DNA of 64,000 nt from Gammaproteobacteria bacterium (lineage in GTDB: Bacteria > Pseudomonadota > Gammaproteobacteria > SZUA-152): positions 186,001 through 250,000 of the forward strand of contig JAOUJW010000002.1 in the NCBI GenBank assembly GCA_029882975.1, read 5' to 3'. How positions within the stretch are numbered: position 1 is the stretch's first letter; each line of letters opens with the position of its first letter. Under the pieces are notes generated by a model. The model saw only the letters and a list, made by a program, of their open reading frames with translations. It did not search any database and was not told the origin of the DNA. Below, one piece after another: positions 35,808 to 62,090 of the stretch. Made by a program: the position numbers and the translations under genes.

Positions 35808-37670
35808 TTAGTCGTTACTCGAAACCAGTTCGCGCCACACTGTTTTCACCCTGGGATAGCTCAGAATCGCATCTAGTATCAATGTTCGATATTCCTCTCT
35901 AATAGCGCTGTCCTGAATGCGTCGATACGTAATGGCACTTTCACCAAAATTTAATTGCATATTGTCAACAAAGCTGTTGAACGACCTTCTTGCCGCGTCA
36001 AGCTCTGGCAAAGTTTCCTGCAAAACCGGGACATTCCACCAATGCTCCGGTTTGTTAAGTTCTAGAAATAATTGCTCCAGCGATTTTGTGATATGTTCAT
36101 GTTGGTCCGCATACTGTTGCAGCAACCTGTCTTCGACGCTCAAAATCGTTGTCTCGATTTCCTGTTGCTTGGGCAACACCGACGGATAACCCTTGCGGGT
36201 TAAGTCATCGATGCTAAACAACATAACGTCACCGAAGAACTGGCGTTCAAATTCCCCGGAAAGATCAATGTTCTCGTCCGTCCGAGCAATACCCGGACGA
36301 TACTCAGACCGGCCTTTTTCTTCAACCGTGCGTTTATGCAGCATGGGCAAATTGGCCGTAACGAACTGATCCCCCACGTCACTGCGCAGCAACCTGCCCA
36401 ACACAGGCCCTGCCATGCGTAACTTCAAATTGGCAAACGGTATGAACCAATCTAACATTTCCGGTTGTATTACATAATTACCGGTATAAACCGTCCGCGC
36501 AGGCTTCAGGCTGGCATCAATATTTTCGTAATGGAAAAACATATGCCGGGTAGGATGTTCACCATCAAAAAACCGTTGTAACTGATTTGCGAAACGGGCA
36601 AAGCAGGAACCATTATTGTGCTCCCCCGTTTGCGTACAGGCATAACGATAGCTCGTTCGCTCAGACGCATAACCAAACAATGCCGCCATATCGTGATAGG
36701 CAGCATCGTCATTGCCTATTACGTCCCGATGATGAAATAAACAAGCAGTTTCAGGATCAACCGATGCTATTTGTTCAAGAAAATCCAGGATATCATTCAG
36801 CAACTTCCCCGCCATAACAGAAGGCGACACCGGCGGATCGCCCACCACTTTACCGGTCAAAACCTTGATATCATTTTTGCTAAACAGTCTATCCAAATGA
36901 TAGAAGGTATTCAAACCCATAACATCTTGCTCTTGAGCACCCTGTTTTTGGACCGTACAGTTGAGCCTGAATTCCTGATCGCTATCAATAAAGTATATCA
37001 GCGTGTTATCGGACCTGCCCACAACCCGCCTTAGATACAGATAAGCAATGTTCCGCGTGATGGAAGCCCCTTTGTGATAAAAACGGTTTTGTTGGAACTT
37101 GCCAAGCACCTCTCCTAGACCGCCGCTTTTGAGTACCTGACTAGCCAGATCGTATTGCTCATCCGCGCCAAGATATTTTGTAGTCAAACCTTTTTTCGTA
37201 AACGCCTCAGCCAGCTTATGATGCGCGCGAATATTTTCACCCGATTGGCTATCATCGGCGATAACCACCGATACTTTGTTATAGGCTTGCTGGCTTCTAC
37301 CGCCATAGTTAAAGCTGCCACATAATTCCAGGAGGCTATTCAGGCAAATTTCCAGGTGCCGGGGACGATCCGCAACCGGAATCACAATAATAAAGTTGTG
37401 ACGAGTATCGCTTGCAAGCCCTGCGATATGGTTTTCCATTTCCCGACAGATCGACGAATACTGCTCTTGTAACTGTTTGTCACATTCGCCACACCACAAT
37501 TCCTTTTCAACCATGGGAATTACTTGCTCGTACAAGGCAAGCGACTTATCCGTGTCCGGCTCTGATTCCTGAACCAGGTCATCGAGATCAGCAGCGATGC
37601 TGCGGCAATGAATATGATACAAGCGCGATTGCAGGAAATTATTGAGCGCCTGAAACGGATCACTTTTCAT
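35808..37670 (-). CDS. Glycosyltransferase-like protein with a DxD motif
   Basis: The 620-residue protein has a nucleotide-sugar transferase region from about 90 to 260, with NFIIVIPVADRPRHLEICLNSLLEL, VVIADDSQSG and LIYFIDSDQEFRLN (DxD-type metal site), like GT-A fold enzymes of family 2. The remaining 350 residues are not recognised and may bind the acceptor. No membrane helices are obvious. It follows the TPP enzyme gene by 15 bp. Family assignment beyond a GT-A fold is uncertain. Confidence 0.65.
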   Translation of the reverse strand: MKSDPFQALNNFLQSRLYHIHCRSIAADLDDLVQESEPDTDKSLALYEQVIPMVEKELWCGECDKQLQEQYSSICREMENHIAGLASDTRHNFIIVIPVADRPRHLEICLNSLLELCGSFNYGGRSQQAYNKVSVVIADDSQSGENIRAHHKLAEAFTKKGLTTKYLGADEQYDLASQVLKSGGLGEVLGKFQQNRFYHKGASITRNIAYLYLRRVVGRSDNTLIYFIDSDQEFRLNCTVQKQGAQEQDVMGLNTFYHLDRLFSKNDIKVLTGKVVGDPPVSPSVMAGKLLNDILDFLEQIASVDPETACLFHHRDVIGNDDAAYHDMAALFGYASERTSYRYACTQTGEHNNGSCFARFANQLQRFFDGEHPTRHMFFHYENIDASLKPARTVYTGNYVIQPEMLDWFIPFANLKLRMAGPVLGRLLRSDVGDQFVTANLPMLHKRTVEEKGRSEYRPGIARTDENIDLSGEFERQFFGDVMLFSIDDLTRKGYPSVLPKQQEIETTILSVEDRLLQQYADQHEHITKSLEQLFLELNKPEHWWNVPVLQETLPELDAARRSFNSFVDNMQLNFGESAITYRRIQDSAIREEYRTLILDAILSYPRVKTVWRELVSSND

Positions 37671-37685
37671 TTTGTTGACGTGGTT

Positions 37686-39365
37686 TTAACGTTTGGAAAA
37701 ATAATTTGGAAAAGCATCTTTATCAATCATGATTTCAACAAGATTAATATCTTTACTAAAGTCCAGCTCGTCGAACAAACCATCAAGGTCATCAGCGTTT
37801 TCTATACGCTTGTGCTTGATGCCGAAAGAGCGGGCCAGAAACGCATAATCAGGATTTTCAAAATCACAATTCAAATAACGCTCATTGTATTGTTGGTGCT
37901 GATTTTTGCGAATCAAACCCATAGTGGAGTTGTTGAACATGATGATATTGAGCGGAATACGATAATTCACCGCCGTCATTATTTCCATGCAGCACATTTG
38001 AAAACCGCCGTCGCCTATAACGGAAAAAGTCGGCTTTTGCTCCGCAAATTGAGCGCCAATGGCGGCCGGTATAGAATAACCCAATGAGGAAATACCCGTA
38101 TTGGGATAATAGCTATTTTCCGTAGAGACATTAAAAAAATTTTGCGCAAAAATGATATTATCATCAAACAAACGAATACCGCGCGGGAAGGCTCTCTCAA
38201 GGTCATTAAAGAATCGTTTCACCAAATCAAAACGCTGATTAAACGTCTCCGCATCCTGGCCAATGTCCGTCTTCAGATTGTCCACCGCCTGCAAAATATT
38301 ATCTTTATCCTTTGCAGAAAGCTTGTTGCGTTTGATGTTATTGAGAACGCCGGAAATCACCTGTTTGATATCACCCTGAATGGCAACATCCGCCTTAAAA
38401 ACTTTTTCCAGCTGGGATTCATCAATATCGACCTGGGCGATTTTCTTGTCTTTTAATAATTCCTTTTGCCACAGATAGCTGGTACGTTCATTGAACCCGG
38501 CCCCCAGAACCAGCAACAAATCCGCTTCGTCACAAATGTATTGGCGGGCATTGCCGTATGAGGTTACCCCCATACTGCCCAGGGCATAAGCGGATGTTTC
38601 ATTGACCGCCCCCTTACCCTTAAGGCTGGTAGTCACGGGGATGCTCATCAACTCACTGAGTTCGGTAAGCTCTTGCTGACATCCAGCTCTGACACAGCCG
38701 TAGCCGGCGATAATAATGGGATGTTCAGCCTTAACAATGAGATCCGTCAACGATTCGATGGCCTGCGAAAACTGACTGCTCTCAGGCTGCCCGGCATGGG
38801 GATTACGCTCAGTCTTGATGTCATCCAGAATACTCGCGTCCACTTGCTCTTTTTGCACGTTAAAAGGCAGACTGAGCAATACCGGCCCGGGATTGGAAGA
38901 CAGTAGAATATTGGATGCGCGATTTAAAACGTTACCCAAATAGTCGGTACGCTCTATCATGCGGCTATAGCGGGTAATCCCTTTAAACAGAATATTCTGG
39001 TCAATGCTTCCGCCCTCTCCGGAGCTTTCCTGCAAACCACCGCGGCCGAATATGTGGGTGGAGGTTTCGCCGGTAATCGCCAAAACCGGCTGCTTGTCGA
39101 CATAGGCATTGGCAATGCCGGTTATCAGGTTCGTTGCACCGGGCCCTGCGGTGGCAATACAAGCACCGATTTTTCCGGAATCCCGCGCATAGCCACTGGC
39201 CATAAAGGCCGCGCCCTGTTCATGCTTGGCAAGAACACTTTTAATTTGCGAGTCATAAAGACCATCATAAACCGGCAGGATATGTGCGCCAGGCATACCA
39301 AAGATGGTGTCTATGCCTAGACGCTCCATGTAATTGACAATGAGTTTACTAACGCTGATGTTCAT
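37686..39365 (-). CDS. Acetolactate-synthase-like TPP enzyme
   Basis: The 559-residue protein is a full-length ThDP-dependent enzyme of the acetolactate synthase fold. The activating glutamate is in LAKHEQGAAFMASGYAR (about residue 48), and the diphosphate/Mg motif is GDGGFQMCCMEIMTAVNYRIPLNIIMFNN. It decarboxylates a 2-oxo acid and transfers the two-carbon (or larger) unit. No regulatory small subunit or ilvC gene is near. The neighbours are an oxoamine-synthase-like gene, a glycosyltransferase and a sulfotransferase, so a specialised product is likelier than branched-chain amino acids. Confidence 0.85.
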   Translation of the reverse strand: MNISVSKLIVNYMERLGIDTIFGMPGAHILPVYDGLYDSQIKSVLAKHEQGAAFMASGYARDSGKIGACIATAGPGATNLITGIANAYVDKQPVLAITGETSTHIFGRGGLQESSGEGGSIDQNILFKGITRYSRMIERTDYLGNVLNRASNILLSSNPGPVLLSLPFNVQKEQVDASILDDIKTERNPHAGQPESSQFSQAIESLTDLIVKAEHPIIIAGYGCVRAGCQQELTELSELMSIPVTTSLKGKGAVNETSAYALGSMGVTSYGNARQYICDEADLLLVLGAGFNERTSYLWQKELLKDKKIAQVDIDESQLEKVFKADVAIQGDIKQVISGVLNNIKRNKLSAKDKDNILQAVDNLKTDIGQDAETFNQRFDLVKRFFNDLERAFPRGIRLFDDNIIFAQNFFNVSTENSYYPNTGISSLGYSIPAAIGAQFAEQKPTFSVIGDGGFQMCCMEIMTAVNYRIPLNIIMFNNSTMGLIRKNQHQQYNERYLNCDFENPDYAFLARSFGIKHKRIENADDLDGLFDELDFSKDINLVEIMIDKDAFPNYFSKR

Positions 39366-39535
39366 GGCTGCAGAATTTATATTAGTAAAACAAGCCGTTT
39401 TATTTGGCTTGCCGAGTGAGTATATCCTATTTACGGAGTTTTGTTTAAATGAGAACCCGAATCCGAGAGAATCTGGATAATATATAATAAAAATAGCAAG
39501 TTAGCGCTATTTTTCCCAAGAATTCCCTGGAAATG

Positions 39536-39620
39536 AAAACCGGGCAAGCAGGGAGCCGAGCGCAATCAATGCTAATAATAGAAAATGCTATGTTCTAAAC
39601 CCTTCTGTTAGCCCGGTTTT
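39536..39620. repeat. Long inverted repeat in the 315-bp gap
   Basis: AAAACCGGGC (39536-39545) and GCCCGGTTTT (39611-39620) are perfect inverted copies around a 65-base loop. Runs of T or A flank the stem, so it could act as a terminator for either strand. The rest of the gap (39366-39535) shows no gene and may hold the promoter of the downstream TPP gene. Confidence 0.4.
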
Positions 39621-39680
39621 TTAGCCCTGGTTTTTTTAACCTTGGTTTTATTAACCTTGGTTTTATTAACCCTGGCTTTT
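39612..39680. repeat. Tandem 15-bp repeats after the oxoamine-synthase-like gene
   Basis: Five C-C-(C/T)-(T/G)-G-G cores end at 39616, 39630, 39645, 39660 and 39675, spaced 14, 15, 15 and 15 bp. The full unit is close to CCTTGGTTTTATTAA. The array begins immediately after the stop codon at 39681 on the minus strand. The period is a multiple of three. Confidence 0.75.
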
Positions 39681-40865
39681 CTATTTTTCCAGGCTGGCAA
39701 AGGCCTGCTCCAAAGCATCTACCAGTTGGTCTATTTGAGCCTCACTGTGGCGCGCGGATATATTAAACTTCAGCAAGGATGCCCCTTCCGGGGTATTGGG
39801 ATAACACAAGCCGCTCACCAGGATTTTGTTCTGATACATGTGTTCAACCATTTTTTGTGCATTAAGGGTACTGCCGACATTGATTTTTACAATGGGATGT
39901 TTGGTACGCAGCAGCTTCCAGCGTTTTTTGGTGATTTGACTTCTGGCATATTTGCAAATGGCATTGAGTTTTTCGAGGATGGATTGATCCTGCTGCAGCG
40001 ACTCCAACGCATACAAAACGGTGGCAGCATTGACGGGTGACAGCGGCTCAGAGATTAAATAAGGCCTTGAAGTGAGCCTCAGCCAGTTGATCAGTTCCTG
40101 TTCGCCGGCAATAAACCCACCGGCCACATTACCCAGCGCATACGCAAAGGAACCGGCCATCAACCCTGGCCGGTCTTCCAATAGCAAATGACCGAATGAC
40201 CCGCTGCCGTTGCTGCCCAATAAACCCAAACCAAGACTGTCATCCACAACAGCAATGGCATCATAGTCCTTGGTGAGCTTTAAAATACTACTTAAATCTG
40301 CGCATTCGCCACTACTTGCGAAAACACCATCAGTCACTACCAGTCGGTAGCGGGCACCTTGAGAACATTTGAGGTGGTACTCCAGATGCTCATAGTCTTT
40401 GTGGCGGTACAGCACCACATTGGCAGAGGACATGCGCGCCCCATCGTACAAACCCGGGTTACACATCTCATCGAGAAACAAAGTATCGCGCTCATTGGTC
40501 AAGGTTTCAAACAAACCCAGCTTAGCCAAATAGGCGGAGCCCAGCACCATGGCGTCATCAACACCCAGAAACCGAGCCAGAGCCTGTTCCAGTTGCCGGT
40601 GTATACCCATTGTACCAACAGAACTTCGAAGAGCCGTACTGCCTGTACCATATTGCTTCAAGGCATCCTGCGCGACCTTTTTAAGTTTTTTATTGGCTTT
40701 CCAACCCAGCAAATCAGTACCGACAAAATCCAGGAAACAATCCGCCTCGCTCAAACACACTTCCATGTTTTCGGTTTGTGTAACCATGGCTTCGGTTCTG
40801 AGCAAACCGGCCGCGTCCAGGTTTTGCATTTCCTTGATTAAGGCTTTATTTATTTTTGTAGACAT
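39681..40865 (-). CDS. Alpha-oxoamine synthase homologue lacking the PLP lysine
   Basis: The 394-residue protein aligns by eye with KBL/AONS/serine palmitoyltransferase enzymes along its length (YGTGSTALRSSVG, TDGVF, GGFIAG, SRPYL). Key residues are changed. The PLP lysine of the GTLGKALG motif is Tyr (GSFAYALG), the histidine of V-D-D-x-H is Leu (VVDDSLGLG), and the D-E-L-N-H histidine is Asn (DEMCN). It is therefore probably a pseudoenzyme or a partner subunit, like the non-catalytic LCB1 subunit of eukaryotic SPT. The ATG at 40865 follows the preceding stop by one base, so it belongs to the stator operon. Confidence 0.8.
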   Translation of the reverse strand: MSTKINKALIKEMQNLDAAGLLRTEAMVTQTENMEVCLSEADCFLDFVGTDLLGWKANKKLKKVAQDALKQYGTGSTALRSSVGTMGIHRQLEQALARFLGVDDAMVLGSAYLAKLGLFETLTNERDTLFLDEMCNPGLYDGARMSSANVVLYRHKDYEHLEYHLKCSQGARYRLVVTDGVFASSGECADLSSILKLTKDYDAIAVVDDSLGLGLLGSNGSGSFGHLLLEDRPGLMAGSFAYALGNVAGGFIAGEQELINWLRLTSRPYLISEPLSPVNAATVLYALESLQQDQSILEKLNAICKYARSQITKKRWKLLRTKHPIVKINVGSTLNAQKMVEHMYQNKILVSGLCYPNTPEGASLLKFNISARHSEAQIDQLVDALEQAFASLEK

Positions 40866-40866
40866 A

Positions 40867-41505
40867 TTATTCCAGTTTGCTTGTACCAATAAACCACAAA
40901 GTAGCGCTCATACAGTATTGCCAGGACAAGCTTTGTGAATTGGTATAGTCCAGGCAGAAGTGGTCCAACGCTGCGGCCATGCAAGCATAATCCGATACTT
41001 TGCACTTGGCCGCAGGACTTAGTGAGAATTGAGTCACCAGTCCGGCATATTTTTGTTGCAGCCGGTTGTCCATCACAATGCGGTAATCTTCATTGGCGTT
41101 TTTCAATAAGCGATACCGCTCTGAACGACTGATAAAGGTTTTTTCACTGAGTTTATTCACAATAATAATGTCGGAATACAGCTCACAATCCACTCGTGAC
41201 TCATCAACCCCCAATTCACGGCAGTTGTTTTTGGCAAACCTCAGCAAACACTCAACTTTCAGCTCGGTAACATCGGAGCGGCAGTTATTTCTTTCCACCG
41301 CATGGATATAGGCCTGGGCGTTTCTGAGGCTTTGCAATTTGGCCTTATCAAAAGCCCGTAGCACGCTTTCTATGTATGCCAGACGGTTTTGTTCCAAATA
41401 GGGTTTATCAGCGTAGGCTGTGCTGTGCCATAAGCACAGTAGCAACGACATAGTAAAGCACTGAATTAACGGCTTGTTCAAAATCCTGCTCACAATTCTT
41501 CTCAC
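40867..41505 (-). CDS. Cysteine-rich periplasmic protein of the stator operon
   Basis: The 212-residue protein has a signal peptide (to AYADK) and eight cysteines in its mature part, among them NNCRSD, VECLLRF, NNCREL, RVDCEL, KCKVSDYACM and FCLDY. They probably form disulfide bonds. The rest looks mostly helical. Its start overlaps the stop of the 597-residue gene by four bases (ATGA). It has no recognised family. By context it is an envelope component working with the MotA/MotB-like pair. Confidence 0.7.
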   Translation of the reverse strand: MRRIVSRILNKPLIQCFTMSLLLCLWHSTAYADKPYLEQNRLAYIESVLRAFDKAKLQSLRNAQAYIHAVERNNCRSDVTELKVECLLRFAKNNCRELGVDESRVDCELYSDIIIVNKLSEKTFISRSERYRLLKNANEDYRIVMDNRLQQKYAGLVTQFSLSPAAKCKVSDYACMAAALDHFCLDYTNSQSLSWQYCMSATLWFIGTSKLE

Positions 41506-43295
41506 AACCGCCCGTGCCCCTGTTGGTATTGTTCACGAAAACTCTTTACATAGTTTTGCAAGTGAACATGATAAGGATAGACATCCAACAAATCTTCACG
41601 ATCAAGAACCCAACTGTTGCCTAAAAAAATGTCGGCATTTTTTAATATTTCCAGTCGGGCCAACAAGTACAAGGGTTGGTTCAGCTGATCGGCATCGCGC
41701 ACACCGCTCCCCGCAATATCGATATCCGAGCGGCTGATCAGTTGAGAATAGTGGAACCGGTTTTCCAAAACTTTTGTCAGCTCATTGTACATGGCAATTT
41801 GCGAATCGCCTTTTGTCTTTGGCAATGAAAAACTTCGGGTACGCACCTCAAATTCTGAACCGTGCATTTTAAATCTCTCTGTAGCGGTAGTCGCCGGGAA
41901 TTCGCTGTTCTGCATAAAGCACTGAAAACTGACGATCTCATTTTTGGAACGAATTTGCTGTTTACCCCTGGCAATTTTATTTTTTATGATTTTACCCTTG
42001 GTTCTTTGCCCGGATTGCGCATCAGCACTATTTTGGGAACGATCATTACCCGGTTGCTCTTGCTCCGAAGAGCGGCTTAGTTTTTGCAGTTGCTCCTCCA
42101 GGTTGAGTATAGCGTTAGTGACGTCATGCCTTTTCAAAACCAGCCCCAGCTGCTCCATTACGTTTTCCTGTTCCAGTGTTGCCACGGGATTAGCCACCAG
42201 TTTCTGACAAGTGTCCGGAGCGGAATTCCAATGGATTTGGTATTCTTTGCAAAAACCCACGGTAATATCGCTTTTGGGATTGAACAATAACTGGCCGTAC
42301 ACATGCTCAAACAAACGGCTGCTATTTCTCTCATCGTCTGGTGCCAGGGCAATGGTGTTGGTTTGATTTTGAAAGCGCTTAACACAGTAGTTGGGCCTGA
42401 GAAGTTCACGAAACTTTTGCACAAACGCATTTCCCGGATAGGGCAGATTGGTCCAGATATGATGTGATGCCCTTGGAGATGCTTTTATGGCGTAGGATTG
42501 ATAGTCTTTCAACTCCTCCAGTTTATCCAATTGTAATTTGAATTTTGTCTCAACTTCCCGAACCTTGTCCTCAGTAAAGTTCTCAATTTTGCTCTGCACC
42601 GAAGTGCTTAACAATCGTGTCATGTAGTGCAAATAGGGCTCGTCTTCACGTCTCTTTTCACACGCGCGCATTTTGGCCGGATCCGGTTTTTTGGGTTCAC
42701 ACTGCCCCAGGCTTTTCGCATAACCCAGTTTATAGGCCCTAAGGATTAACTCACAACCTTCCTTTGGCTGAACAGCTTCCAGTTTTTGCACTGTGCTGGA
42801 GCAATACTCAACCTCCGACAGACTTATTTTTGAAGGTAGCTTTTTTAGCTTTTCGAAACCCACATTATCCAGCGTTAATAGAGAAATATTGAACACGACA
42901 AGAACACAAAACAAGCGGCGCAAAACAATCGGCAATTCTGTGGCCGTGATCTCCAAACGTCGGCTTATACCAAAAGCCAGGCGCTTGTATTCATAGAGCA
43001 CGTTAACCCCAAAGGCCAGTTGGTTTTTTGGCTCTAAATGAAACACGTACACGCTTTTCTCACCCAAGCGCCAGAAATTAAAAAAACCAACTCCGAAGAT
43101 TATGGAAAACAAGCCGAGAAAGAACGACAAACTATCACTCAATCCTCTCAAGTAACTCCAATTTAGCACGTTCGCCTGCACCGCGAGCGCGGAACAAACC
43201 AACACAGCAAGCGTAAGGACCAAGCTGTTGGTGCCCAGCTTGAAGCAAAAAGATTTCCGCTCTGACTGAGCAGGGTTAGCGGCGCGACTTCTCAT
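41502..43295 (-). CDS. Large membrane-anchored protein of the stator operon
   Basis: The 597-residue protein has three hydrophobic helices near the N-terminus (about 22-42, 54-74, 128-148). A large hydrophilic domain with several cysteines follows (CSS, CEL, CEPKKPDPAKMRACEKR, YCVKR, FCKEY, TCQKL). The cysteines suggest that the domain is periplasmic and disulfide-bonded. It overlaps both neighbours by ATGA. No family is recognised. It may be the fixed scaffold or the driven component for the stator. Confidence 0.7.
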   Translation of the reverse strand: MRSRAANPAQSERKSFCFKLGTNSLVLTLAVLVCSALAVQANVLNWSYLRGLSDSLSFFLGLFSIIFGVGFFNFWRLGEKSVYVFHLEPKNQLAFGVNVLYEYKRLAFGISRRLEITATELPIVLRRLFCVLVVFNISLLTLDNVGFEKLKKLPSKISLSEVEYCSSTVQKLEAVQPKEGCELILRAYKLGYAKSLGQCEPKKPDPAKMRACEKRREDEPYLHYMTRLLSTSVQSKIENFTEDKVREVETKFKLQLDKLEELKDYQSYAIKASPRASHHIWTNLPYPGNAFVQKFRELLRPNYCVKRFQNQTNTIALAPDDERNSSRLFEHVYGQLLFNPKSDITVGFCKEYQIHWNSAPDTCQKLVANPVATLEQENVMEQLGLVLKRHDVTNAILNLEEQLQKLSRSSEQEQPGNDRSQNSADAQSGQRTKGKIIKNKIARGKQQIRSKNEIVSFQCFMQNSEFPATTATERFKMHGSEFEVRTRSFSLPKTKGDSQIAMYNELTKVLENRFHYSQLISRSDIDIAGSGVRDADQLNQPLYLLARLEILKNADIFLGNSWVLDREDLLDVYPYHVHLQNYVKSFREQYQQGHGRL

Positions 43296-43891
43296 TGTGT
43301 ATCGAAATCGCTGATAATTTTGTCTTCGATAGTGATGCGACGGTTTTGAGATTTGGAGGCTCTCAACATATCCCTTTGCGCCTTGGACATAGCACCTTCG
43401 AACCTGGGCACCGCCACTTGCGGCGAATTATCCGCGTGAGTACAAATCACCACATGATCCGGCAACTCCCCGCTGTATTTACTCACCTCCCGGTAAGCGG
43501 AATAGGCTCTTTGAAAACCTAACTCCAGGTTTTTCTCTTTCTCCCCATCTCCGTCGGTATGACCGTTAATCACCAGTAGACGCTTGGTCAAACCACCGGT
43601 CTGGAAATTGAGCACTTGACCGGTTTCGTCAAAGAAAATGTTTTTGAACACCTCCCGACCTTCATCAGAAAGATCATGCTTACCTGGCGGAAACAAAACA
43701 TCACCCGGCAGACTGAGCATTCGGGCTGTCACATCGCCGACGGTTTCACTGATACCAATGTCCTTACCCTGATTAAGCGACCATAGTATGACGAAAAACA
43801 CCATGATAATGGTCATGAGGTCCGTATAGATGATCATCCAGGGCTCTCCCCGCGTTCTTCTTCCCTTGGGGGGATCCGCATAACGTCTCAT
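43292..43891 (-). CDS. MotB-like stator with OmpA domain
   Basis: The 199-residue protein has a short cytoplasmic N-terminus and one transmembrane helix with an aspartate (D24) in WMIIYTDLMTIIMVFFVILW, equivalent to the proton-carrying Asp of MotB. An OmpA-like peptidoglycan-binding domain with VINGHTDGDGEKEKNLELGFQRAYSAY and a final NRRITIE follows. This is the layout of MotB, PomB and ZorB. It overlaps the MotA-like gene by ATGA and should form an ion-driven stator with it, anchored to the cell wall. No flagellar genes occur nearby. Confidence 0.85.
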   Translation of the reverse strand: MRRYADPPKGRRTRGEPWMIIYTDLMTIIMVFFVILWSLNQGKDIGISETVGDVTARMLSLPGDVLFPPGKHDLSDEGREVFKNIFFDETGQVLNFQTGGLTKRLLVINGHTDGDGEKEKNLELGFQRAYSAYREVSKYSGELPDHVVICTHADNSPQVAVPRFEGAMSKAQRDMLRASKSQNRRITIEDKIISDFDTQ

Positions 43892-44736
43892 CGCACTACC
43901 TCTATTGAGTTTTTATTCTCTATGATGACTTGCAAGGCACGACACAAAGAATCGTAGTCGTAATCCAGATCAACCATTCTGCGCTCAAAGCGAGTACCAA
44001 TAATTTTGTATATGGATGAAAATATGGCACCGTAGAGCGTGGTTTTCAGAGCCAGTGCCAACTGGGGTGAAAGAGATTCCACCGTCACATCAGACCCCAG
44101 GCTATCGAACATGGCAATGAGACCGATAATAGTGCCGATCAAACCGAACAAGGGCATCGTCGCTGAGACAAAATCGAAATTCGAACTGGAAGATTCGTAC
44201 AGTTCGTGACATTCCACATAATAGGAATGAGCCACAAATTCAGCATATTCAAAACTTTTTCCGGCGGAGACGATCTCCTGAATATCCCGGCTTAACGAGT
44301 TGTCCGGTAACTGTATGGGGACATTGCTGTTAATAGGCCCCACGGCGATACTGCCATCCCTACCTCGTTTGATGTTCAGAAGATTTTTCAAAGCGACAAT
44401 CGTTTCCTGCATCGAGGTGGCACGCGTATTCAGATGCTTGGATGAAAAAAATATAATGAAAGTGGAAAATGTCAGTATGATCAGATCCAAACCGGTCACA
44501 TAGATCAACAGGCCCACGGATATGGTAAACATGGATATAAAGTAGTTTTCGGTTATAAAAAACACCGAAGCCACGAGCAACATAAACGCAAACCCTACCA
44601 GCCCCACCAAACCGGCCCCGGCGCTGGATTGCCTGACCGCTTGAGTACCTTTATTAAAAAATGGAAAATACCCTTTACTCGGCTTTTCCACCGCCACTTC
44701 GTTACTTAAATTATTGTTTAATTCGTTGTCACTCAT
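43888..44736 (-). CDS. MotA/TolQ/ExbB-like proton channel
   Basis: The 282-residue protein has hydrophobic segments at about 40-100 and two more in the MotA/ExbB core: SATMPLFGLIGTIIGLIAMFDSLG and LALALKTTLYGAIFSSIYKIIG. These are the signature helices of the proton channel family. It lacks the long cytoplasmic tail of ZorA. It is partnered by the MotB-like gene (ATGA overlap). Its ATG was probably overlapped by the stop of the 772-residue gene before a small element inserted upstream. Confidence 0.87.
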   Translation of the reverse strand: MSDNELNNNLSNEVAVEKPSKGYFPFFNKGTQAVRQSSAGAGLVGLVGFAFMLLVASVFFITENYFISMFTISVGLLIYVTGLDLIILTFSTFIIFFSSKHLNTRATSMQETIVALKNLLNIKRGRDGSIAVGPINSNVPIQLPDNSLSRDIQEIVSAGKSFEYAEFVAHSYYVECHELYESSSSNFDFVSATMPLFGLIGTIIGLIAMFDSLGSDVTVESLSPQLALALKTTLYGAIFSSIYKIIGTRFERRMVDLDYDYDSLCRALQVIIENKNSIEVVR

Positions 44737-44769
44737 GGTAGTTTCCGTTGTTTCTCTTGTTTATCTTTA

Positions 44770-45024
44770 GGAACCTCTGATTCATTCCTGGATGAGCAGA
44801 GATGGGGACAAAATTGTTAAGTGCGAGGCGAAAAGCTTCCGATCCATTCTCACGCGCCTTCACCACATCCCTGTGGGGAAAATGCAGGGAATATCGGGAA
44901 TATTTCCAAATTTTTCAAAGCTCCCGCTCCATGCTCTCGCCCCTTGCCTACATCCATGTAGGCAACGAAGCAATTGACGATTTCGTACCCATATATGCCA
45001 TTCGTGGAGTTAATCAGAGGTTCC
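44770..45024. mobile_element. Miniature inverted-repeat element (255 bp, non-autonomous)
   Basis: GGAACCTCTGATT at 44770 and its exact inverted copy AATCAGAGGTTCC at 45012-45024 bound the element. It is flanked by a duplicated TTTA (44766-44769 and 45025-45028). It contains no transposase frame but has internal hairpins such as TTGCCTAC/GTAGGCAA. A four-base duplication fits mobilisation by an IS5-type transposase, which is inference. It interrupts the stator operon. Confidence 0.85.
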
Positions 45025-47328
45025 TTTAATAGCTTTCGCTATTTCCTGTCGTTCCTGTTCAATTATTTGTTGGTAAATGGGGTGGTAGTTATAGGCATTG
45101 AGCAACACCACGGATACCACATAAAGCACACCCAGAGAAACAGCCCAACGCACCAATCTCTGCGCCCGTGTGTTTTCTTCCCGACTCTCTATGGCATCTT
45201 GGCAAAACCGGGACAACCAAACCAGTCTTTCCAATTCATCTGTTTGAATCACTTTCGCCTTACGTTCAGCCACTAATTTCTTTGTCTGGGTTAATATTTC
45301 ATCCTGGCTTTTGAGTATGTCCGAGTCAGCCCCTTTCTTTGTCAAGGGTGCATCATTTTTTGTGACCTGGTAATACAAATGTTGCATTAAGTGATTGAGA
45401 CCGAAATTCAGTACCACAAAGGCATCGGCCACTATGGCGAAATATTTGGACAAAAGAAAATTGTAGGGTTTTCGTTGTACGCCTTTTTTGTAACGAAAAT
45501 AAAAATAGAGCGTTGAGAAAACATCATCGCGGCGCAACAAGCCGCCGAATTTATGCAGCAGGGTACCAAACAAGAAATCACGGTCATGCTCACTGGAATC
45601 ATCCACTTCCGCTTCGATATCATAGCGGTCGTGCTTGAAAGAATTGTCAATCAACAACTGCGCGACAATTTCCATTTCATCGCGATTATCCGACATTAAA
45701 GAGGGAAATTGGTCCTTACCTGCCAACTGGGGTAACACCACCCCTTCCAACACGTTTGCGGAATTTCGTAAACCTTGTGTACGCGCCCCGGCGCCTCGCT
45801 CAAGCCTCCCCTCTATCTCCCGCTCAACCGTCCTTTCAAAGAAGTACCGCACAGACTGAAAAGCCTTTTCCCGTTTTCTATCGGCGCGCGGCGTTTGCCG
45901 TTTTCGGGTTTGTGTCTGTGGGGCCAGATTGGCAACTAACTGTAGTAAGCTTTCCTGGCGCACAATGGTACCGAAGGATTTTTTAACATAGACGGAGGTT
46001 TCCTGAGGATTAAAATCATCAATATCCCCCAGAGCAAATTTAATCAAATCCTTTTCAATGGCGATTCTCGGACGACTGAATCCACCGCCATAAAAGATCA
46101 CACCCCTGTGTTGTCCTGCCAGGAAAACCACATCATCGACCAGTTTTCGACTCAGACTGACACCATTTCTTTTCAGGTGTGCGATAAAGTACTTGCGTAC
46201 TTTCTCGTTCCACACATTGCTATAGTCCGGCTTCCCCTCTGCCAGCCTCACATCCAGACTCATGGAAAACACATCCAATATCAGCCCGGCCCAATAGAGA
46301 ACGTATAATCCGGACAAGGGAATCAACAACAAAAGAATCACTTCCTGGTTTAAAGAAAACAGCGTACCTACCTGATAAACCCCGTAAAAAAAGCCCGCAT
46401 AGAATAAAAGCAAAAAAGCGGACTTGACAAGCAGCGTGTAGAGACAAGACTGCAACACAGGCAATATGTTCTTAGGCTTAATACGCTCCAAGCCTTGCAA
46501 ATGCGGCACAACAATTTTGTAATTGATAATGAAAAAATAGCCCCAAACCGCACCACCCAGCCCCGTAATAATCCAATGGTAGCCATCAGACACCTTCAAT
46601 ATCACATCGAAAACGGTACCGGCCGCGCTGGTCTCTAACTGGTATTGATAAGCGATCAGCGACAGACAACCAATTACAAACGGATAAAACCAACGCAACA
46701 CGATGCGCGATCTTTCCGGATGTCGCAAAGGTTTGCCGACAAACGAAAGAAAATAAGGAAAAACGGAAAGTATCGCGAGGAAAATCAACAAGCGTATTCT
46801 GGTGTCATTGAATTGATGTTGTTGCTGACCAAACTCAACGGAAACCGAATCGGTTTTGTATTGGCGGTTTTCCAGAATACCGCCTTTTTCCAAAAAAGGC
46901 TTGAATGCTTCAAAAGCCCCCATTCTCAACTTAAGTAAACTGGAACCTTGACCAATAGGAATGGAACCGGTCTTCACCAGAGACTCGTTTTGAACATCGT
47001 ATACTTCATAATCGATGCCGCTAACATCAACGACCGCCAGCATCAATGCATCGACCTGTTGTTTTTTGTAAAGCGCAAGAATGCAGGGCATACGGGGTTT
47101 AAAGCAGTCTTGTTCCTGCGCCAGCTTCTTAAATGGAATCACCCGCTCGTAACCGGACAAGTCTTTATAGACATTGTTTTCCAGGGCATTAACCACCCAG
47201 TCTTTTTGCCCCGCAGCCGTAAAACTGACCACAAACTTTCCAGTGACAATATCGTCCTCAGCTACCACCCTCCCGTTCAACAGGATAATTATGCAAGCAA
47301 AAGCAAGTAAGAGAAATGAACGACTCAA
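45010..47328 (-). CDS. Large membrane protein heading the stator operon (C-terminus altered by insertion)
   Basis: The 772-residue protein has a signal peptide (to VVAED) and a periplasmic domain (about 25-175). At least five transmembrane helices follow between 178 and 345. A long soluble region (about 350-730, with basic and acidic coiled parts) and a last helix near 735-755 complete it. No family is recognised. It starts at TTG, the only usable start in frame. The last four residues and the stop come from the end of the inserted element; without it the frame would run on ten more codons into an ATGA overlap with the MotA-like gene. It is first in the operon. Confidence 0.72.
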   Translation of the reverse strand: MSRSFLLLAFACIIILLNGRVVAEDDIVTGKFVVSFTAAGQKDWVVNALENNVYKDLSGYERVIPFKKLAQEQDCFKPRMPCILALYKKQQVDALMLAVVDVSGIDYEVYDVQNESLVKTGSIPIGQGSSLLKLRMGAFEAFKPFLEKGGILENRQYKTDSVSVEFGQQQHQFNDTRIRLLIFLAILSVFPYFLSFVGKPLRHPERSRIVLRWFYPFVIGCLSLIAYQYQLETSAAGTVFDVILKVSDGYHWIITGLGGAVWGYFFIINYKIVVPHLQGLERIKPKNILPVLQSCLYTLLVKSAFLLLFYAGFFYGVYQVGTLFSLNQEVILLLLIPLSGLYVLYWAGLILDVFSMSLDVRLAEGKPDYSNVWNEKVRKYFIAHLKRNGVSLSRKLVDDVVFLAGQHRGVIFYGGGFSRPRIAIEKDLIKFALGDIDDFNPQETSVYVKKSFGTIVRQESLLQLVANLAPQTQTRKRQTPRADRKREKAFQSVRYFFERTVEREIEGRLERGAGARTQGLRNSANVLEGVVLPQLAGKDQFPSLMSDNRDEMEIVAQLLIDNSFKHDRYDIEAEVDDSSEHDRDFLFGTLLHKFGGLLRRDDVFSTLYFYFRYKKGVQRKPYNFLLSKYFAIVADAFVVLNFGLNHLMQHLYYQVTKNDAPLTKKGADSDILKSQDEILTQTKKLVAERKAKVIQTDELERLVWLSRFCQDAIESREENTRAQRLVRWAVSLGVLYVVSVVLLNAYNYHPIYQQIIEQERQEIAKAIKGTSD

Positions 47329-51422: not shown

Positions 51423-51477
51423 GTTACCAAAAGTTACCAAATCCGGGAATCAGCCGTTTTATGGAAAATGTTACCAA
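51423..51477. repeat. GTTACCAA repeats next to the integrase start
   Basis: GTTACCAA occurs at 51423-51430, 51433-51440 and 51470-51477, the last inside the start of the integrase gene. An inverted near-copy TTGGTAAT is at 51287-51294. Short direct repeats near att are typical arm-type binding sites of tyrosine integrases. Confidence 0.45.
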
Positions 51478-52768
51478 CAAGAGGGAACCCTACTTCCCAG
51501 AGGAATTTAAGGACGATTACAAGGAATTTGAATTCCGCGACCTAACCCTCCAAAGCAAGAAATTCAAAAGCTTCATTACCGTTTTGGAGAAGGATGTCAC
51601 CTGTAAAGATACCACCGTATCCTACCTCAAGCTGAGGGTGAACCCCGGTGGTGCCATGAGCTTCAGAACCTCCTACCGGGTAAAGGTAGGCCAGTACCAG
51701 GGAACCCTGCGCCATGTCTCCCTTGGCCGCTACCCTTTGGTCTCTATTGTGGATGCCCGGGCAAAAGCCAAAGAAATCCGCGAAGCCGTAGATGCCGGCG
51801 GCGATCCGGTACGGGAGAAGAAAAAGAGCCAGGAAGCCATCGCTTTGAAGTTAGACAATCTGGACAATTCTTATGAAACCATGGTTGAGCAATTTATCAC
51901 CAAGTGGTGTATCCAGAAAAAGAAAAACCGCACCTGGAAGGAAACCAAACGAATCCTACTAAGAGCCGGGAAACAGTGGCTCAAATGGCCCTTACCCGAT
52001 GTGTCAGAAAACCATGTACAGGACGCCCTGGACTCTCTGATAGACGAAAATAAGCCCTACATGGCCAACCGCACATGGCAAGCCTTCAATGTGTTCTTTA
52101 AGTGGGCCAAGCGACGCAAAAAGATCACGAGCAATCCAATGGCCGACATCGAGAAGCCGTTCGACAACGAAGAGCCAACCAAGCGCCCCTGGAACAATGG
52201 CGAGATAAAGAAAATCTGGAGCTCCGCGGAATCCATTGGCGGCATGTATGGCGATTTCATCAAGCTGCTAATGATTATGGGCCAGAGAGTCATGGAAGTT
52301 GCCGCGATGGATGGTGATGAGGTGAACTTCGAAAATGCCACCTGGATACTGCCCAGGGAACGATCCAAGAACAAAAGAGACCACACCTTCCCCCTGCCCC
52401 AGTTAGCCATAGACATCCTAGCGAATCGAGAATTGGAGGAAGACAACCAACATTTTTTCCCAGGCCCAGGCAAGCTTGGCCACTTCATACCGGGGAGTAA
52501 ATTGAAAAACTTGGTAGCAACAAAGTCCGGAGTTACGGACTTTACTTTCAAGCAAGCGAGGGACACGCTACGGACCGAACTGGATAAGTTGAAAATTCCA
52601 GACCATATCAAAATAGCCTGCCTGAACCACACCCCGCAAGACGTAGGATCAAAGAGCTATTCGAGCTATGACTATCTGGCAGAACAGCGGGAGGCTTTTG
52701 ATGCTTGGGCGAAAGTCATTAACGATATCGTGAGCCGCCCTTCCAACGTTGTGGCGATGGAAGCTTGA
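51461..52768 (+). CDS. int: P4-type tyrosine integrase
   Basis: The 435-residue protein has the arm-binding and core-binding domains of P4-like integrases (HVSLGRYPLVSIVDARAKAKEIREAVDAGGDP). Its catalytic domain contains the arginine in MGQRVMEVAAMDGDEV, KQARDTLRTEL, and NHTPQDVGSKSYSSYDY with the nucleophile Tyr. The box-II histidine position appears as Lys (FKQAR), a variation seen in some relatives. It catalyses site-specific integration into the tRNA-Thr gene. It is the first gene inside the element, transcribed away from the attachment site. Confidence 0.92.
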   Translation: MENVTNKREPYFPEEFKDDYKEFEFRDLTLQSKKFKSFITVLEKDVTCKDTTVSYLKLRVNPGGAMSFRTSYRVKVGQYQGTLRHVSLGRYPLVSIVDARAKAKEIREAVDAGGDPVREKKKSQEAIALKLDNLDNSYETMVEQFITKWCIQKKKNRTWKETKRILLRAGKQWLKWPLPDVSENHVQDALDSLIDENKPYMANRTWQAFNVFFKWAKRRKKITSNPMADIEKPFDNEEPTKRPWNNGEIKKIWSSAESIGGMYGDFIKLLMIMGQRVMEVAAMDGDEVNFENATWILPRERSKNKRDHTFPLPQLAIDILANRELEEDNQHFFPGPGKLGHFIPGSKLKNLVATKSGVTDFTFKQARDTLRTELDKLKIPDHIKIACLNHTPQDVGSKSYSSYDYLAEQREAFDAWAKVINDIVSRPSNVVAMEA

Positions 52769-52770
52769 CC

Positions 52771-53514
52771 ATGGAACCAATGGACCCCGAATTTAGTGCA
52801 GACACAAGAAAACGAATCACCGATAGATATTGTAAAGAACGAAGCAAAAAAAGGGACTGGGACTGGAAGGATGAGGCCGCAGTGTTTACAAAAACACTTG
52901 AAGGCTATGCCAATGCAATTCCCGAGCTTCAGCGCGTAGCCCTACCCGAACAGCAGAAGCGCAAAGAAAATTTAACCTCAATACGTGGAACGCTTACCAA
53001 ATTGGCTGATAGTTTAAACCAATTGGATTCTAACGCATTGGGATGGATGACCTACTACGCATTGCAGAACCTCGAAAAGGAAATTGATGTAGAAAAGCTA
53101 ATGCGTCCCTACATTAAACCATTGGACGAAATTCTTGCACACGACCGAGGGGAAGAACCCAAAGGGAAGCTAAACCATCAAACGGCCATGGAATATGCTT
53201 ACTATGAGGGGCGTCCAGCATTAGTTCAATTGTTGTCCACACTAGCCACAGGAGCAGCTAAAACCGAGAAAAATTTACCGGTGGGCAATTATAATATCAA
53301 CCTCAAAACCGCGCTCGCGTTGGAACGCACTTTTTGGGAACATAGACTGAATTTCACAACTTCAAATACAGGGTTTGCAGGAATCTGTCTTCAAGCCATT
53401 TTTTCACTAGGCGGCGTCGAAGTGAAAAGCGTTTCATACTGGCTGGGTCTTGCCAAAAATAACAAAGAATCAATGTTTTACTGGGCTGCCGAACAAACCG
53501 AAAAAACTTCATAA
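52771..53514 (+). CDS. Hypothetical protein, element cargo
   Basis: The 247-residue protein is mostly helical and charged (WDWKDEAAVFTKTLEGYANAIPELQRVALPEQQKRKENL, LATGAAKTEKNLPVGNYNINLKTALALERTFWEHR). There are no signal peptide or membrane helices. It begins 2 bp after the integrase stop. No recognised domain. Genes in this position between int and alpA-like genes are often accessory cargo, including anti-phage genes, but nothing here proves it. Confidence 0.55.
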   Translation: MEPMDPEFSADTRKRITDRYCKERSKKRDWDWKDEAAVFTKTLEGYANAIPELQRVALPEQQKRKENLTSIRGTLTKLADSLNQLDSNALGWMTYYALQNLEKEIDVEKLMRPYIKPLDEILAHDRGEEPKGKLNHQTAMEYAYYEGRPALVQLLSTLATGAAKTEKNLPVGNYNINLKTALALERTFWEHRLNFTTSNTGFAGICLQAIFSLGGVEVKSVSYWLGLAKNNKESMFYWAAEQTEKTS

Positions 53515-53623
53515 AATCTCACGAAAAATTTCGTCCCGGTTTTGCTATCCACACCACACCCTCTTTTCTAATATTTCCTCAGCTTGAATTTAATTTAACT
53601 TACTTACTTGATGAGGTGCACAT

Positions 53624-53833
53624 ATGAATTTTGGTCGCAATGTATGGCCCGGAGAAGTTGTACTGGCTTGGGAGCGGAAACAAGGTCTAGAGACTGCCGA
53701 CGAACTACCTCCATTTGTTAATCAACAATTCCTAGAAAAGCGCTATAACCGGAGTTCCGTGACCATGTGGCGATGGGTGCAAAGCGGTTACTTTCCCGCA
53801 CCTAAAAAGCTTGGTGTATGTAACCATGCCTAA
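53624..53833 (+). CDS. AlpA-like DNA-binding protein
   Basis: The 69-residue protein contains an AlpA/MerR-type helix-turn-helix: FLEKRYNRSSVTMWRWVQSGYFPAPKKLG. AlpA proteins regulate integrase and excision in P4-like and CP4 elements. It lies 110 bp downstream of the cargo gene and has its own Shine-Dalgarno (GATGAGGT). The C-terminus is shorter than usual AlpA. It probably acts as excisionase or activator. Confidence 0.7.
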   Translation: MNFGRNVWPGEVVLAWERKQGLETADELPPFVNQQFLEKRYNRSSVTMWRWVQSGYFPAPKKLGVCNHA

Positions 53834-54203
53834 CACTGCTGCCCGGATCCACCAAGCGTGGAAAAATACCAATCGGTTGCCGCCTTATGGCAAGCACCTC
53901 GATCCGAAACGCCGCGAGATCTGGGTGTACGCCGGGACCAATGCTTGGCAAGCGGCACGAGATAACTCCACGCGCTCGCCCCTTGTACTGCCGGCCGAGG
54001 AAAATCCGAATTCTTTTTCCTGGCCTGTCCGCGGTAAGGAAGTGACGGTCGTGGTGGCCGGGGATACCGTGGAGTTGGACCTGCTCCGTCTGGCCCGCCA
54101 GTTATTGATAGACGGCGCGACGGTGGTTCGCGTCTTGGAGCCACCGCCAATCGATGACGATCACCCGACAATGAACATGGCAGTATTCCAGGATAGGCCG
54201 TAA
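53826..54203 (+). CDS. Hypothetical element protein
   Basis: The 125-residue protein overlaps the AlpA-like gene by 8 bp and ends in a TAATG overlap with the ATPase gene, so it is translationally coupled. It has a basic N-terminal half and a hydrophobic stretch VTVVVAGDTVELDLLRLARQLL, vaguely Toprim-like, too weak to name. No function is claimed. Confidence 0.55.
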   Translation: MPNTAARIHQAWKNTNRLPPYGKHLDPKRREIWVYAGTNAWQAARDNSTRSPLVLPAEENPNSFSWPVRGKEVTVVVAGDTVELDLLRLARQLLIDGATVVRVLEPPPIDDDHPTMNMAVFQDRP

Positions 54204-55357
54204 TGCTGAAATTGCGCGACTCCGATTCCCTGGAAGACATTAGCGCATCAGTTGGGGAGACTGCCCCTGAAAGAATCGCTGAACCGGCTCACATGGATTT
54301 CTTGAAACTGGCGACCACCGACCCAAAACCGCCGGCGTTTGTCCTGAAACCTTGGATACCTAAAAACGCTACAACATTGTTTCCAGGACACGGGGGCGCC
54401 GGAAAATCGATGCTGGCCTTAACCATGGCCGTTTGCATTGCTCTTAATAGGCCTTTTTTTGATATACAGGTCGAGCGAAGATTCAAGGTGGCATTTTACT
54501 CTTGCGAGGACGACGTTGAAATCATTCACTGGCGATTGGTAAAAATCTGCAAGGATCTAGGGGCGGATATACAGGATCTAGCCAACTGGCTCTTTGTGTA
54601 TGACATGACATCCGTTGAAAATACCCTTTTCGTTGAAAGTTACAATCACGATGAATGCTTTACACCAAGATACGGATGGCTGGCCGAAAAAATCGAAGAA
54701 AACAGAATCGAAGTACTATTTGTAGATAATGCATCCGATGTCTTTGATGCCAATGAAATCCAGCGCAGCAAAGTCAGACGGTTTATACAATCACTAAACA
54801 ACCTAATCAGGCCGAACGATGGGGCAGTAATTTTGCTCGCTCACATCGATAAAGCTGCAGCGAAATCCAAAGACAATGTAGAGAGTTATTCCGGCTCCAC
54901 CGCCTGGCACAATAGTGTCCGATCCAGGCTATCGTTAACCGTTGAGAATGATTCGCTCACACTCGCTCACGCCAAATCAAATCACAGCAAAAAAGCCGAT
55001 CCGATTACATTGCGGTGGACGGAACACGGCACGCTCGAACTAGCGGAACCGGTTCCGCTTCGAGACAGAATCGGCAGTAACGAACAGCAAGCTGTAGTCC
55101 GGCTAATCGCGGAATTCGAATCCAGGGGTGAATGGATAGCACCGGCTCCAAATTCGCCTATTAACGCTTACAAGATGATCCAAGCGGAACCAAACTATCC
55201 AGGACTGAAGCGTAACGAACTCTACACCCTATTACGAGAGTTAGAGCGGCGTGAACTAATTACCAGAACAGAGTTTAAGGACTCGTATCGAAACAAGAAA
55301 CAAAGGTGGTCAGTTACTGAAAAGGGCCACGAATTCATAGGCGCGTTAAGTGCGTAG
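54203..55357 (+). CDS. RepA-like AAA ATPase with C-terminal winged helix
   Basis: The 384-residue protein has a RecA-type ATPase core: Walker A FPGHGGAGKSMLALTMA (about 70-80), Walker B EVLFVDNASD, and ILLAHIDKAAAK, typical of RepA/AAA_25 proteins of plasmids and phage islands. The last about 80 residues form a winged-helix region (NELYTLLRELERRELITRTEF). RepA-type proteins are hexameric helicases for element replication. Iteron-like repeats follow directly, supporting a replication module. Confidence 0.82.
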   Translation: MLKLRDSDSLEDISASVGETAPERIAEPAHMDFLKLATTDPKPPAFVLKPWIPKNATTLFPGHGGAGKSMLALTMAVCIALNRPFFDIQVERRFKVAFYSCEDDVEIIHWRLVKICKDLGADIQDLANWLFVYDMTSVENTLFVESYNHDECFTPRYGWLAEKIEENRIEVLFVDNASDVFDANEIQRSKVRRFIQSLNNLIRPNDGAVILLAHIDKAAAKSKDNVESYSGSTAWHNSVRSRLSLTVENDSLTLAHAKSNHSKKADPITLRWTEHGTLELAEPVPLRDRIGSNEQQAVVRLIAEFESRGEWIAPAPNSPINAYKMIQAEPNYPGLKRNELYTLLRELERRELITRTEFKDSYRNKKQRWSVTEKGHEFIGALSA

Positions 55358-55362
55358 AGTGA

Positions 55363-55519
55363 TTACTTTACGCATGCCAGTTTACTTTACGCAGGAGCAA
55401 CCCTGCGTTGCGTTATGTAAACGGGGGGGTATGGGGGGACACTCCGCGCGCACGTACTACCCAGAATTGACTAAATCCTGGACAAAACTATTGAACCGAC
55501 TAAGCCTTCACATAACGCA
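55363..55519. repeat. Iteron-like repeats, candidate replication origin
   Basis: The motif T-(T/C)-A-C-(T/A)-T-(T/A)-ACGCA occurs four times: TTACTTTACGCA at 55363-55374 and 55382-55393, inverted as TGCGTTATGTAA at 55409-55420, and TCACATAACGCA at 55508-55519. Copies two and three form a hairpin. G-runs lie just after (55423-55437). The position directly after the RepA-like gene supports an origin. Confidence 0.5.
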
Positions 55520-55528
55520 GGTAGCCAA

Positions 55529-55780
55529 GTGAAACACCCAGACCGCAAAGTCAAACGACTACTGAGCCAAGCCGCAGACCTGGACACTCAAGCCCGTGAA
55601 CTGCGAATCCAGGCAGGACAGATCCTGCATAAGCACGGACCACGACGCTGGAACCAAGTGGATCAGAGAGCCTATGGCATAAGCTCGGAGCATTACGCTA
55701 ATTTGTTGGTAGAGATGTATTTACGAACCCTGGCAGACAAAGCACGGCCAGCCATACCACCAAGGAAGCCGGCAGCATGA
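55529..55780 (+). CDS. Small hypothetical element protein
   Basis: The 83-residue protein is charged and helical (KVKRLLSQAADLDTQARELRIQAGQIL), starting with GTG after AGG. It overlaps the next gene by ATGA. No recognised family. Confidence 0.5.
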   Translation: MKHPDRKVKRLLSQAADLDTQARELRIQAGQILHKHGPRRWNQVDQRAYGISSEHYANLLVEMYLRTLADKARPAIPPRKPAA

Positions 55781-55962
55781 TGGTCCGGCACTGCAAACAA
55801 TTGGAGTCAATGCTTAAGCGGCAGCGTAAGGAGCTGGCTGAATTCCTAGATTATTCACTGAGCCTGGAACAACGCGCATTGCTACACCGTGCGATCATGT
55901 TTAACGTAAAACTAATGCGAGCAACGGAAGATGAGGCGAGAAAAGCGAAGCGTACCCCCTAG
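55777..55962 (+). CDS. Small hypothetical element protein
   Basis: The 61-residue helical, basic protein (QLESMLKRQRKELAEFLDYSLSLEQRALLHRAIMF) is translationally coupled to the preceding gene through ATGA. A CCCCCTAGGGGG palindrome follows its end. No function is recognised. Confidence 0.5.
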   Translation: MMVRHCKQLESMLKRQRKELAEFLDYSLSLEQRALLHRAIMFNVKLMRATEDEARKAKRTP

Positions 55963-56057
55963 GGGGGGTTAATCCCTGGAGACTGGAGGCTACTACCGTT
56001 AGTCCCCACTTGCTTTTACTCGACCTGCCCCGGATGAAATAAAAATTTGGAGTTACT

Positions 56058-56381
56058 ATGAGACCACCCAAACACCTACGCCCAAACACTAAAAAATGGT
56101 TCAGAAGTGTGCTCGAAGATTACATATTACAGGAGCATCACTACAAACTCTTAACATTGGCGGCAGAAGCATGGGATCGTTGCCAGGAAGCCAGAGAAGC
56201 CTTAGAAAAGCACGGATTAACGTACGAGGATCGCTTTGGCGCTCCCAAATCACGCCCTGAAGTTGCCATTGAGCGCGACTCACGTATTGCGTTTGCTCGC
56301 TTGGTCCGCGAATTGGATCTCGATTGCGGAACGCCGGCAGAGCTTGACCGGCCGCCGGCATTGCGATCAAACCGGAGGTAA
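56058..56381 (+). CDS. P27-type phage terminase small subunit-like protein
   Basis: The 107-residue protein matches the P27/TerS-like pattern: HLRPNTKKWFRSVLEDYILQEHHYKLLTLAAEAWDRCQEAREALEKHGLTYEDRFGAPKSRPEVAIERDSRIAFARLVRELDL. Such proteins recognise DNA for packaging. No large terminase follows within the window, so packaging may depend on a helper phage or on genes further right. The 56382-56904 gene follows by one base. Confidence 0.78.
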   Translation: MRPPKHLRPNTKKWFRSVLEDYILQEHHYKLLTLAAEAWDRCQEAREALEKHGLTYEDRFGAPKSRPEVAIERDSRIAFARLVRELDLDCGTPAELDRPPALRSNRR

Positions 56382-56382
56382 T

Positions 56383-56904: not shown

Positions 56905-56906
56905 TT

Positions 56907-57563: not shown

Positions 57564-57697
57564 ACCCAGCCTCCTAAAACTTCACACAATCTTCACGCAT
57601 GTCATAGTAGATGCAATAAGCGGCCATCTGCGCTGATCGAATGACAGCGCTCACCCATTGGTGAACAGCTTAAATCGAAACCAAAGGAGCAAATGTA

Positions 57698-58906: not shown

Positions 58907-58915
58907 GGAACTGAC

Positions 58916-59503: not shown

Positions 59504-59513
59504 GGAATAAGTC

Positions 59514-62087: not shown

Positions 62088-62090
62088 GGC

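Follow-up and report, generated by a model that had tools for sequence, protein, structure and literature searches.

We find that a 255 bp segment within an operon of a gammaproteobacterial genome is, at roughly nine chances in ten, a MITE with IS5-type ends that has jumped into a TTTA site, trimming the upstream gene and separating the ATGA junction that joined it to the next. Sequence comparison places the element as a derived member of a widespread family of ~160 nt hairpins. We consider that the family outweighs the locus, as its interior is conserved across many families and covaries at almost every pair, strand-specifically. Coordinates are those of the window, i.e. the whole 64,000 nt stretch of DNA that was analysed.

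The inserted element and its ends

Direct reading agrees with the preliminary description in recognizing a 255 bp element with perfect 13 bp inverted repeats and flanking copies of TTTA (Table 1); the ends enclose an interior of 229 bp and are nested in 56 nt arms that are 75% complementary. The boundary had been placed exactly between two codons of the 772-residue gene, and it does fall between AAA and GGA, with the ORF as present ending ...EIAKAIK and then taking GTSD and a TAA stop from the inverted end, as had also been described. Joining the flanks with one TTTA kept restores the frame as anticipated, giving a 778 aa ORF that ends ...AIKDKQEKQRKLP followed by a stop codon, and whose TGA overlaps the motA ATG exactly; the restored tail prolongs the charged, K/Q/E-rich C-terminus of the 772 aa ORF. 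The resemblance claimed to the operon's other junctions is borne out by the next three, all of which are 4 nt overlaps (ATGA at 43891, ATGA at 43295, and GTGA at 41505). The proposed truncation of the protein and breaking of the overlap can both be read from the sequence, ten codons being replaced by four and the stop and the motA start now lying ~270 bp apart.

Table 1. Features of the inserted element and the surrounding operon
Feature	Coordinates	Strand	Basis or remark
MITE, 255 bp	44770..45024	+ (strand of the ~160 nt hairpin model R1)	Sequence and R1 match
TTTA target-site duplication, copy 1	44766..44769		Read directly; 4 bp is the usual length in the family
TTTA target-site duplication, copy 2	45025..45028		Read directly
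Terminal inverted repeat GGAACCTCTGATT	44770..44782	+	13/13 bp perfect
Terminal inverted repeat AATCAGAGGTTCC	45012..45024	-	Reads GGA ACC TCT GAT TAA from the 772 aa gene
Module X1, ~48 bp insert, absent from plain 160 bp copies	44835..44883	+	Alignment
Module Y, the homologue of the stem region at the centre of the ~160 bp family	44884..44919	+	Alignment
Module X2, ~46 bp insert	44920..44963	+	Alignment
ORF, 772 aa, TTG start, C-terminus cut by the element	45010..47328	-	No family match
Stranded former 3' end, ten codons (DKQEKQRKLP), now untranslated motA leader	44736..44765	-	
MotA/TolQ/ExbB-like gene, once overlapping the upstream stop as ATGA	43888..44736	-	PF01618, 8e-16
MotB-like gene, ATGA overlap with motA intact	43292..43891	-	Weak ZorB-like matches
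Operon ORF, 597 aa, ATGA overlap	41502..43295	-	No family match
Operon ORF, 212 aa, GTGA overlap	40867..41505	-	

That the segment is a mobile element (a MITE) and not native sequence is supported, on sequence grounds, because there are many copies, a 4 bp duplication typical of the family, an empty site for a related copy, and an IS5-family transposase with identical ends. Searching by way of the end repeat, as the preliminary description had proposed, does recover other copies: a 15-base end pattern (at most one mismatch) occurs at 24+23 sites in the genome of the window (5.18 Mb, 59 contigs) compared with 2+1 for the reversed control, and there are 57 partial BLAST matches to the element elsewhere in that genome. 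Copies bounded by terminal inverted repeats (TIRs) are 58–255 bp in length. Of 91 non-redundant elements with TIRs at both ends, taken from this genome and others, 51 have an exact 4 bp match between their flanks, with 0–2 at any other length. YTAR is the target rule of the IS5 group, and the commonest duplications (TTAA, CTAG, TTAG and CTAA) are YTAR-like. The TTTA of the window copy departs from this commonest target, which we count against the insertion account; TTTA/TAAA duplications are rarer, yet present (L178, L244 and L245).

The perfect TIRs, constant-length duplication, multiple copies and 255 bp size (below ~400 bp) are those of a MITE, as are ends in common with an autonomous transposon (L165, in another gammaproteobacterial MAG) and past mobility, which is seen for a related copy at rpsO. 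The element is non-autonomous, with no ORF of its own of at least 80 aa. It differs from REP/REPIN elements, which have RAYT single-stranded mobility and no target duplication, in that 4 bp duplications are present. A 197 bp element in the same genome (L046, 1319–1515) has the same type of ends and an unrelated interior; no transposase fragment is detectable in it, and it is possibly a deletion derivative of another IS.

The related copy, 161 bp in length, is located in three genomes of the same family at the stop codon of rpsO. The filled site in G009 reads CGTCG-CTAA-(element)-TTGA-GCCCGTTATTCG, and the empty sites read CGTCG-CTAA-GCCCGTTATTCG in G017 and CGTCG-CTGA-AGCCGTTATTCG in G003, a comparison that is direct evidence of insertion with a 4 bp duplication for this related copy. 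In L062 (1501–1661), L209 and L210, family copies have the stop codon of rpsO as their precise insertion point. Because TAA is often part of the target, as in TTAA, many copies abut gene ends.

Scanning GTDB contigs with the end sequence gave a 1149 bp element (L165, 160–1308) with two perfect copies of the same 13 bp end. Its 315 aa transposase scores 340 bits with the IS5 model of NCBIfam, for which the cut-off is 140, and matches both PF01609 and PF05598. To judge from the identical ends and the 4 bp duplication, the window copy was probably moved by an IS5-type transposase. No transposase of the L165 type was found in the window's genome assembly, so the element is without a partner there; one relative has a broken copy. 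Two candidates for an autonomous partner were set aside: PF01609 finds only a fragmentary transposase without these ends in the same genome, and the variant ends GGYRCCTCTATTAATT are present, among the sites listed, in MITE-sized pairs only.

A widespread family of ~160 nt hairpins

The alignments, made with MAFFT, include hand-picked copies. Length and ends, but not folding, were the criteria for choosing 22 copies of 154–162 bp, which can be aligned over their entire length across genera. Their consensus fold has 53 pairs with 94% of cells paired, and the covariation score is 0.457, compared with 0.168 when shuffled and at most 0.103 with partners slid, statistics that are inflated by the relatedness of the copies. 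From these seed copies we built a covariance model, R1, after which we name the family here. Of 274 genomes sampled from the class, 100 contain sequence that R1 recognizes at E ≤ 0.001, often over its full length and in multiple copies, although the E-values are rough and weak matches may be other hairpin MITEs; about 43 genomes pass E ≤ 1e-12, by our own count from the match table. The window element scores 76.4 bits (E 2.3e-17 on the plus strand and 2.5e-9 on the minus strand), with R1 aligning over it at positions 1–160 and a ~95 nt insertion inside. Since the R1 strand is plus and the operon strand is minus, the element is antisense to the operon.

In a further 24 copies, 54 of the 61 pairs have compensatory changes and the score is 0.596, compared with 0.219 when shuffled, although these copies lean towards R1 because they were found with it. 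Some of these have quite different terminal repeats (GGTGCC/GGCACC, GATACC, GAGACC) that still pair, and the core motifs AGGC, AATAGC..GCTATT and CAACG are recognizable despite this; the interior helices covary as strongly as those at the ends. Neither the window element nor two family copies tested have an Rfam match, and blastn with one 159 bp copy as query found no family copies in plasmids and phages. Searches of the open-access literature by topic and by end and core sequence found no description of the family, which is apparently unnamed in the literature on bacterial elements.

By alignment, the window copy is a rearranged family member, with two ~47 bp X modules inserted around the central stem Y. 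Other copies in the genome have Y only, X only, X-Y, or X with 17 bp repeats, and module X is alone at C1:322683–322727; X-only copies could have arisen from X-Y-X by recombination between X modules. Pseudoalteromonas plasmids carry a repeat that is 87% identical to module X2 across 55 bp. X is also seen as an independent dispersed repeat of ~46 bp with a TACATCCATGTA palindrome (L084, 1501–1555, and L085, 1501–1559), on Pseudoalteromonas and Saccharobesus plasmids and in tandem in Saccharobesus. In one copy (L010:1344–1580) the X module has turned into five 17 bp repeats (ACCTACATCCATGAATT), a minisatellite within a MITE.

Strand asymmetry of the family

Read on the model strand, the 22 seed copies contain 98 GU pairs and 17 AC mismatches (each of which is GU on the opposite strand), and the 24 further copies 145 and 25, an excess of GU of about six-fold. 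The RNA fold of this strand is the more stable in 22 of 22 and 24 of 24 copies, by ~19 kcal/mol on average, with consensus energies of -58.6 and -74.5 compared with -21.7 and -35.0 for the other strand. Measured free of orientation, the strands of family members differ by 18.9 kcal per 160 nt, and those of 44 control elements with the same ends and other interiors by 4.8 (p 1e-12). Because of the excess of GU over AC and the better folding of one strand, unlike in the controls, these comparisons suggest selection on the single-stranded form of one strand, most simply as RNA. Bacterial MITEs are usually treated as palindromes with unimportant interiors, and conserved RNA-like folding of one strand is unusual for transposase-less mobile hairpins. 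We tentatively propose, at somewhat short of even odds, that the family is a mobile structured RNA, i.e. a one-strand hairpin under selection that is borne by MITEs whose end repeats vary from genome to genome (GGAACCTCTGATT, GGCACCTCTATTAATT, GATACCTTTGCAT and others) around a still recognizable RNA core.

Conservation of the hairpin solely as a palindrome of double-stranded DNA (a transposase substrate or cruciform), with RNA-like conservation as a by-product of the inverted ends, would account for the outermost helix, which is the TIR and is kept symmetrical by any IS5-type MITE. It would also suit the absence of a preferred orientation of the copies with respect to the genes beside them (27 v 39 upstream and 28 v 34 downstream), which itself speaks against a simple 5' or 3' UTR function. 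We nonetheless regard it as unlikely, as such a palindrome should decay equally on both strands, contrary to the GU and AC counts, the consistently greater stability of one strand, the excess of the strand difference over that in the controls, and the covariation of interior helices. Also improbable is that the conserved strand acts not as RNA but as single-stranded DNA, in replication or in a strand-specific step of transposition. DNA hairpins too tolerate G-T pairs, no promoter or transcript is known, and the lack of orientation bias is again compatible; however, the YTAR 4 bp duplications and the IS5-family DDE transposase with identical ends point to double-strand transposition, and established HUH/REP-type single-stranded DNA elements are not known to have such target duplications.

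Should the family be a mobile structured RNA, it would constitute a transposase-dependent satellite in which RNA is the selected part, across much of the Gammaproteobacteria. Were a transcript to exist, the family would be a widespread and unlisted structured RNA travelling as a transposon; were there none, the strand-specific conservation of a mobile hairpin would require another explanation. The window copy does not have the marked asymmetry of the family: its two strands differ by just 5.2 kcal/mol, and the values for the other copies with X lie between -10.6 and +14.4. It therefore seems that insertion of X relaxed the strand constraint, and the low asymmetry together with the two extra modules leads us to file the window copy as a derived, relaxed relative of the R1 family.

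Effect on the operon and its surroundings

In the sequence of events that we envisage, the MITE entered a TTTA site within the last ten codons of the upstream gene, 30 bp before the start of the MotA-like gene. Because the inverted end supplies Gly-Thr-Ser-Asp-stop, the protein lost its terminal DKQEKQRKLP and passed from 778 to 772 aa, and the stop and the next start, once overlapping as ATGA, moved apart. Translation of MotA would then start independently, from sequence between the element and the ATG, and the operon mRNA would bear a long hairpin; RNA predicted from the region is, for both strands, much more stably folded than shuffled controls (z -6.0 and -8.2). We infer a loss of translational coupling to motA and, by analogy with Correia and ERIC elements (PMC10969869), a possible hairpin-dependent change in mRNA processing. 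An ORF inside the element was considered as a means of re-coupling, and its 27 open codons are without an ATG, GTG or TTG start. The ORFs downstream of the element are still open. Of the copies in its genome, the window copy alone terminates an ORF longer than 100 codons. The locus shows cleanly how a MITE can edit a protein C-terminus and undo a translational overlap.

No homologue of the 772 aa protein was found in 96 relatives, GTDB contigs, plasmids, or 369 sampled genomes of the class, and none of the MotA-like protein among the same 369 genomes. The ZorB matches of the MotB-like gene are weak (best E 3.7e-12), and no Zorya C/D-like match was found among the proteins scanned; the operon (40867–47328, minus strand), in which the 772, 597 and 212 aa proteins are orphans, is possibly a MotAB-powered system. 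Adjoining it on the same strand are genes (35808–40889) for a BioF/Kbl-type PLP acyltransferase, an acetolactate-synthase-like TPP enzyme, and a 620 aa protein without family match, which perhaps form a small-molecule pathway. On the plus strand there is a prophage-like segment (51461–61523) with a tyrosine integrase (Arm-DNA-bind_3, Phage_integrase) and with capsid-like (57698–58906) and tape-measure-like (59514–61523) ORFs, both named from reading the sequence alone. An Rfam C4 antisense RNA (62041–62122, plus strand; 46.5 bits, gathering 45) is near this segment.

The preliminary description had further allowed that the element might add a terminator or promoter, and this part is not supported. 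No terminator-like site was found within the element, and its one promoter-like site, a weak 9/12 match on the operon strand (44918–44890), is at chance level, as shuffled sequence gives a mean of 0.8. Several bacterial MITEs are known to carry promoters (PMC10969869), yet we think it quite improbable that the insertion acts in the operon mainly as a regulatory switch, through a new promoter or terminator, and not through truncation. Scarcely credible is that there was no insertion and that GTSD and the 270 bp spacer are a native gene end and intergenic region: an orthologous empty site of the window locus was not found, but the inverted ends, the duplication, the multicopy family, the exactly restored ATGA junction, and the empty site demonstrated for a family member all speak against it.

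Relationship to known elements

The closest likeness in the ends is to the IS5 family (NCBIfam NF033581; PF01609 and PF05598), the 13 bp ends of the 1149 bp L165 element being identical to those of the window element, with a 4 bp YTAR-like duplication in common and an L165 transposase that scores 200 bits above the IS5 model cut-off. The window element differs in having no transposase, and none of the L165 type was found in its genome. Correia/NEMIS and ERIC elements are likewise short, hairpin-forming MITEs in intergenic DNA; they are described with TA duplications, in contrast to the 4 bp of the window family. In the open-access literature we found no description of strand-specific interior covariation for Correia/NEMIS or ERIC. 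RNase III cleaves the hairpins that Correia elements form in transcripts, and an ERIC at the 3' end of a gene can alter mRNA decay (PMC10969869).

As far as its summary in PMC10969869 goes, the Chunjie MITE of Geobacter uraniireducens is similar in size, with one copy inside an operon and others intergenic. It is from another organism and is likened here by description and not by sequence; unlike Chunjie as there summarized, the window element replaces C-terminal codons and separates an ATGA junction, and the interior of its family is conserved. In Coxiella burnetii, an in-frame insertion of QMITE2 at the 3' end of enhC supplies the C-terminus of the protein, as the window element does (PMC5896051). 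QMITE2, also likened by description, differs in that it extends the protein by 33 aa, with the stop codon just beyond the insertion, and in having duplications of 7–9 bp compared with 4 bp in the window family (PMC5896051). The insertion has good precedents in Chunjie and QMITE2, and it is the family with an RNA-like interior that raises its interest.
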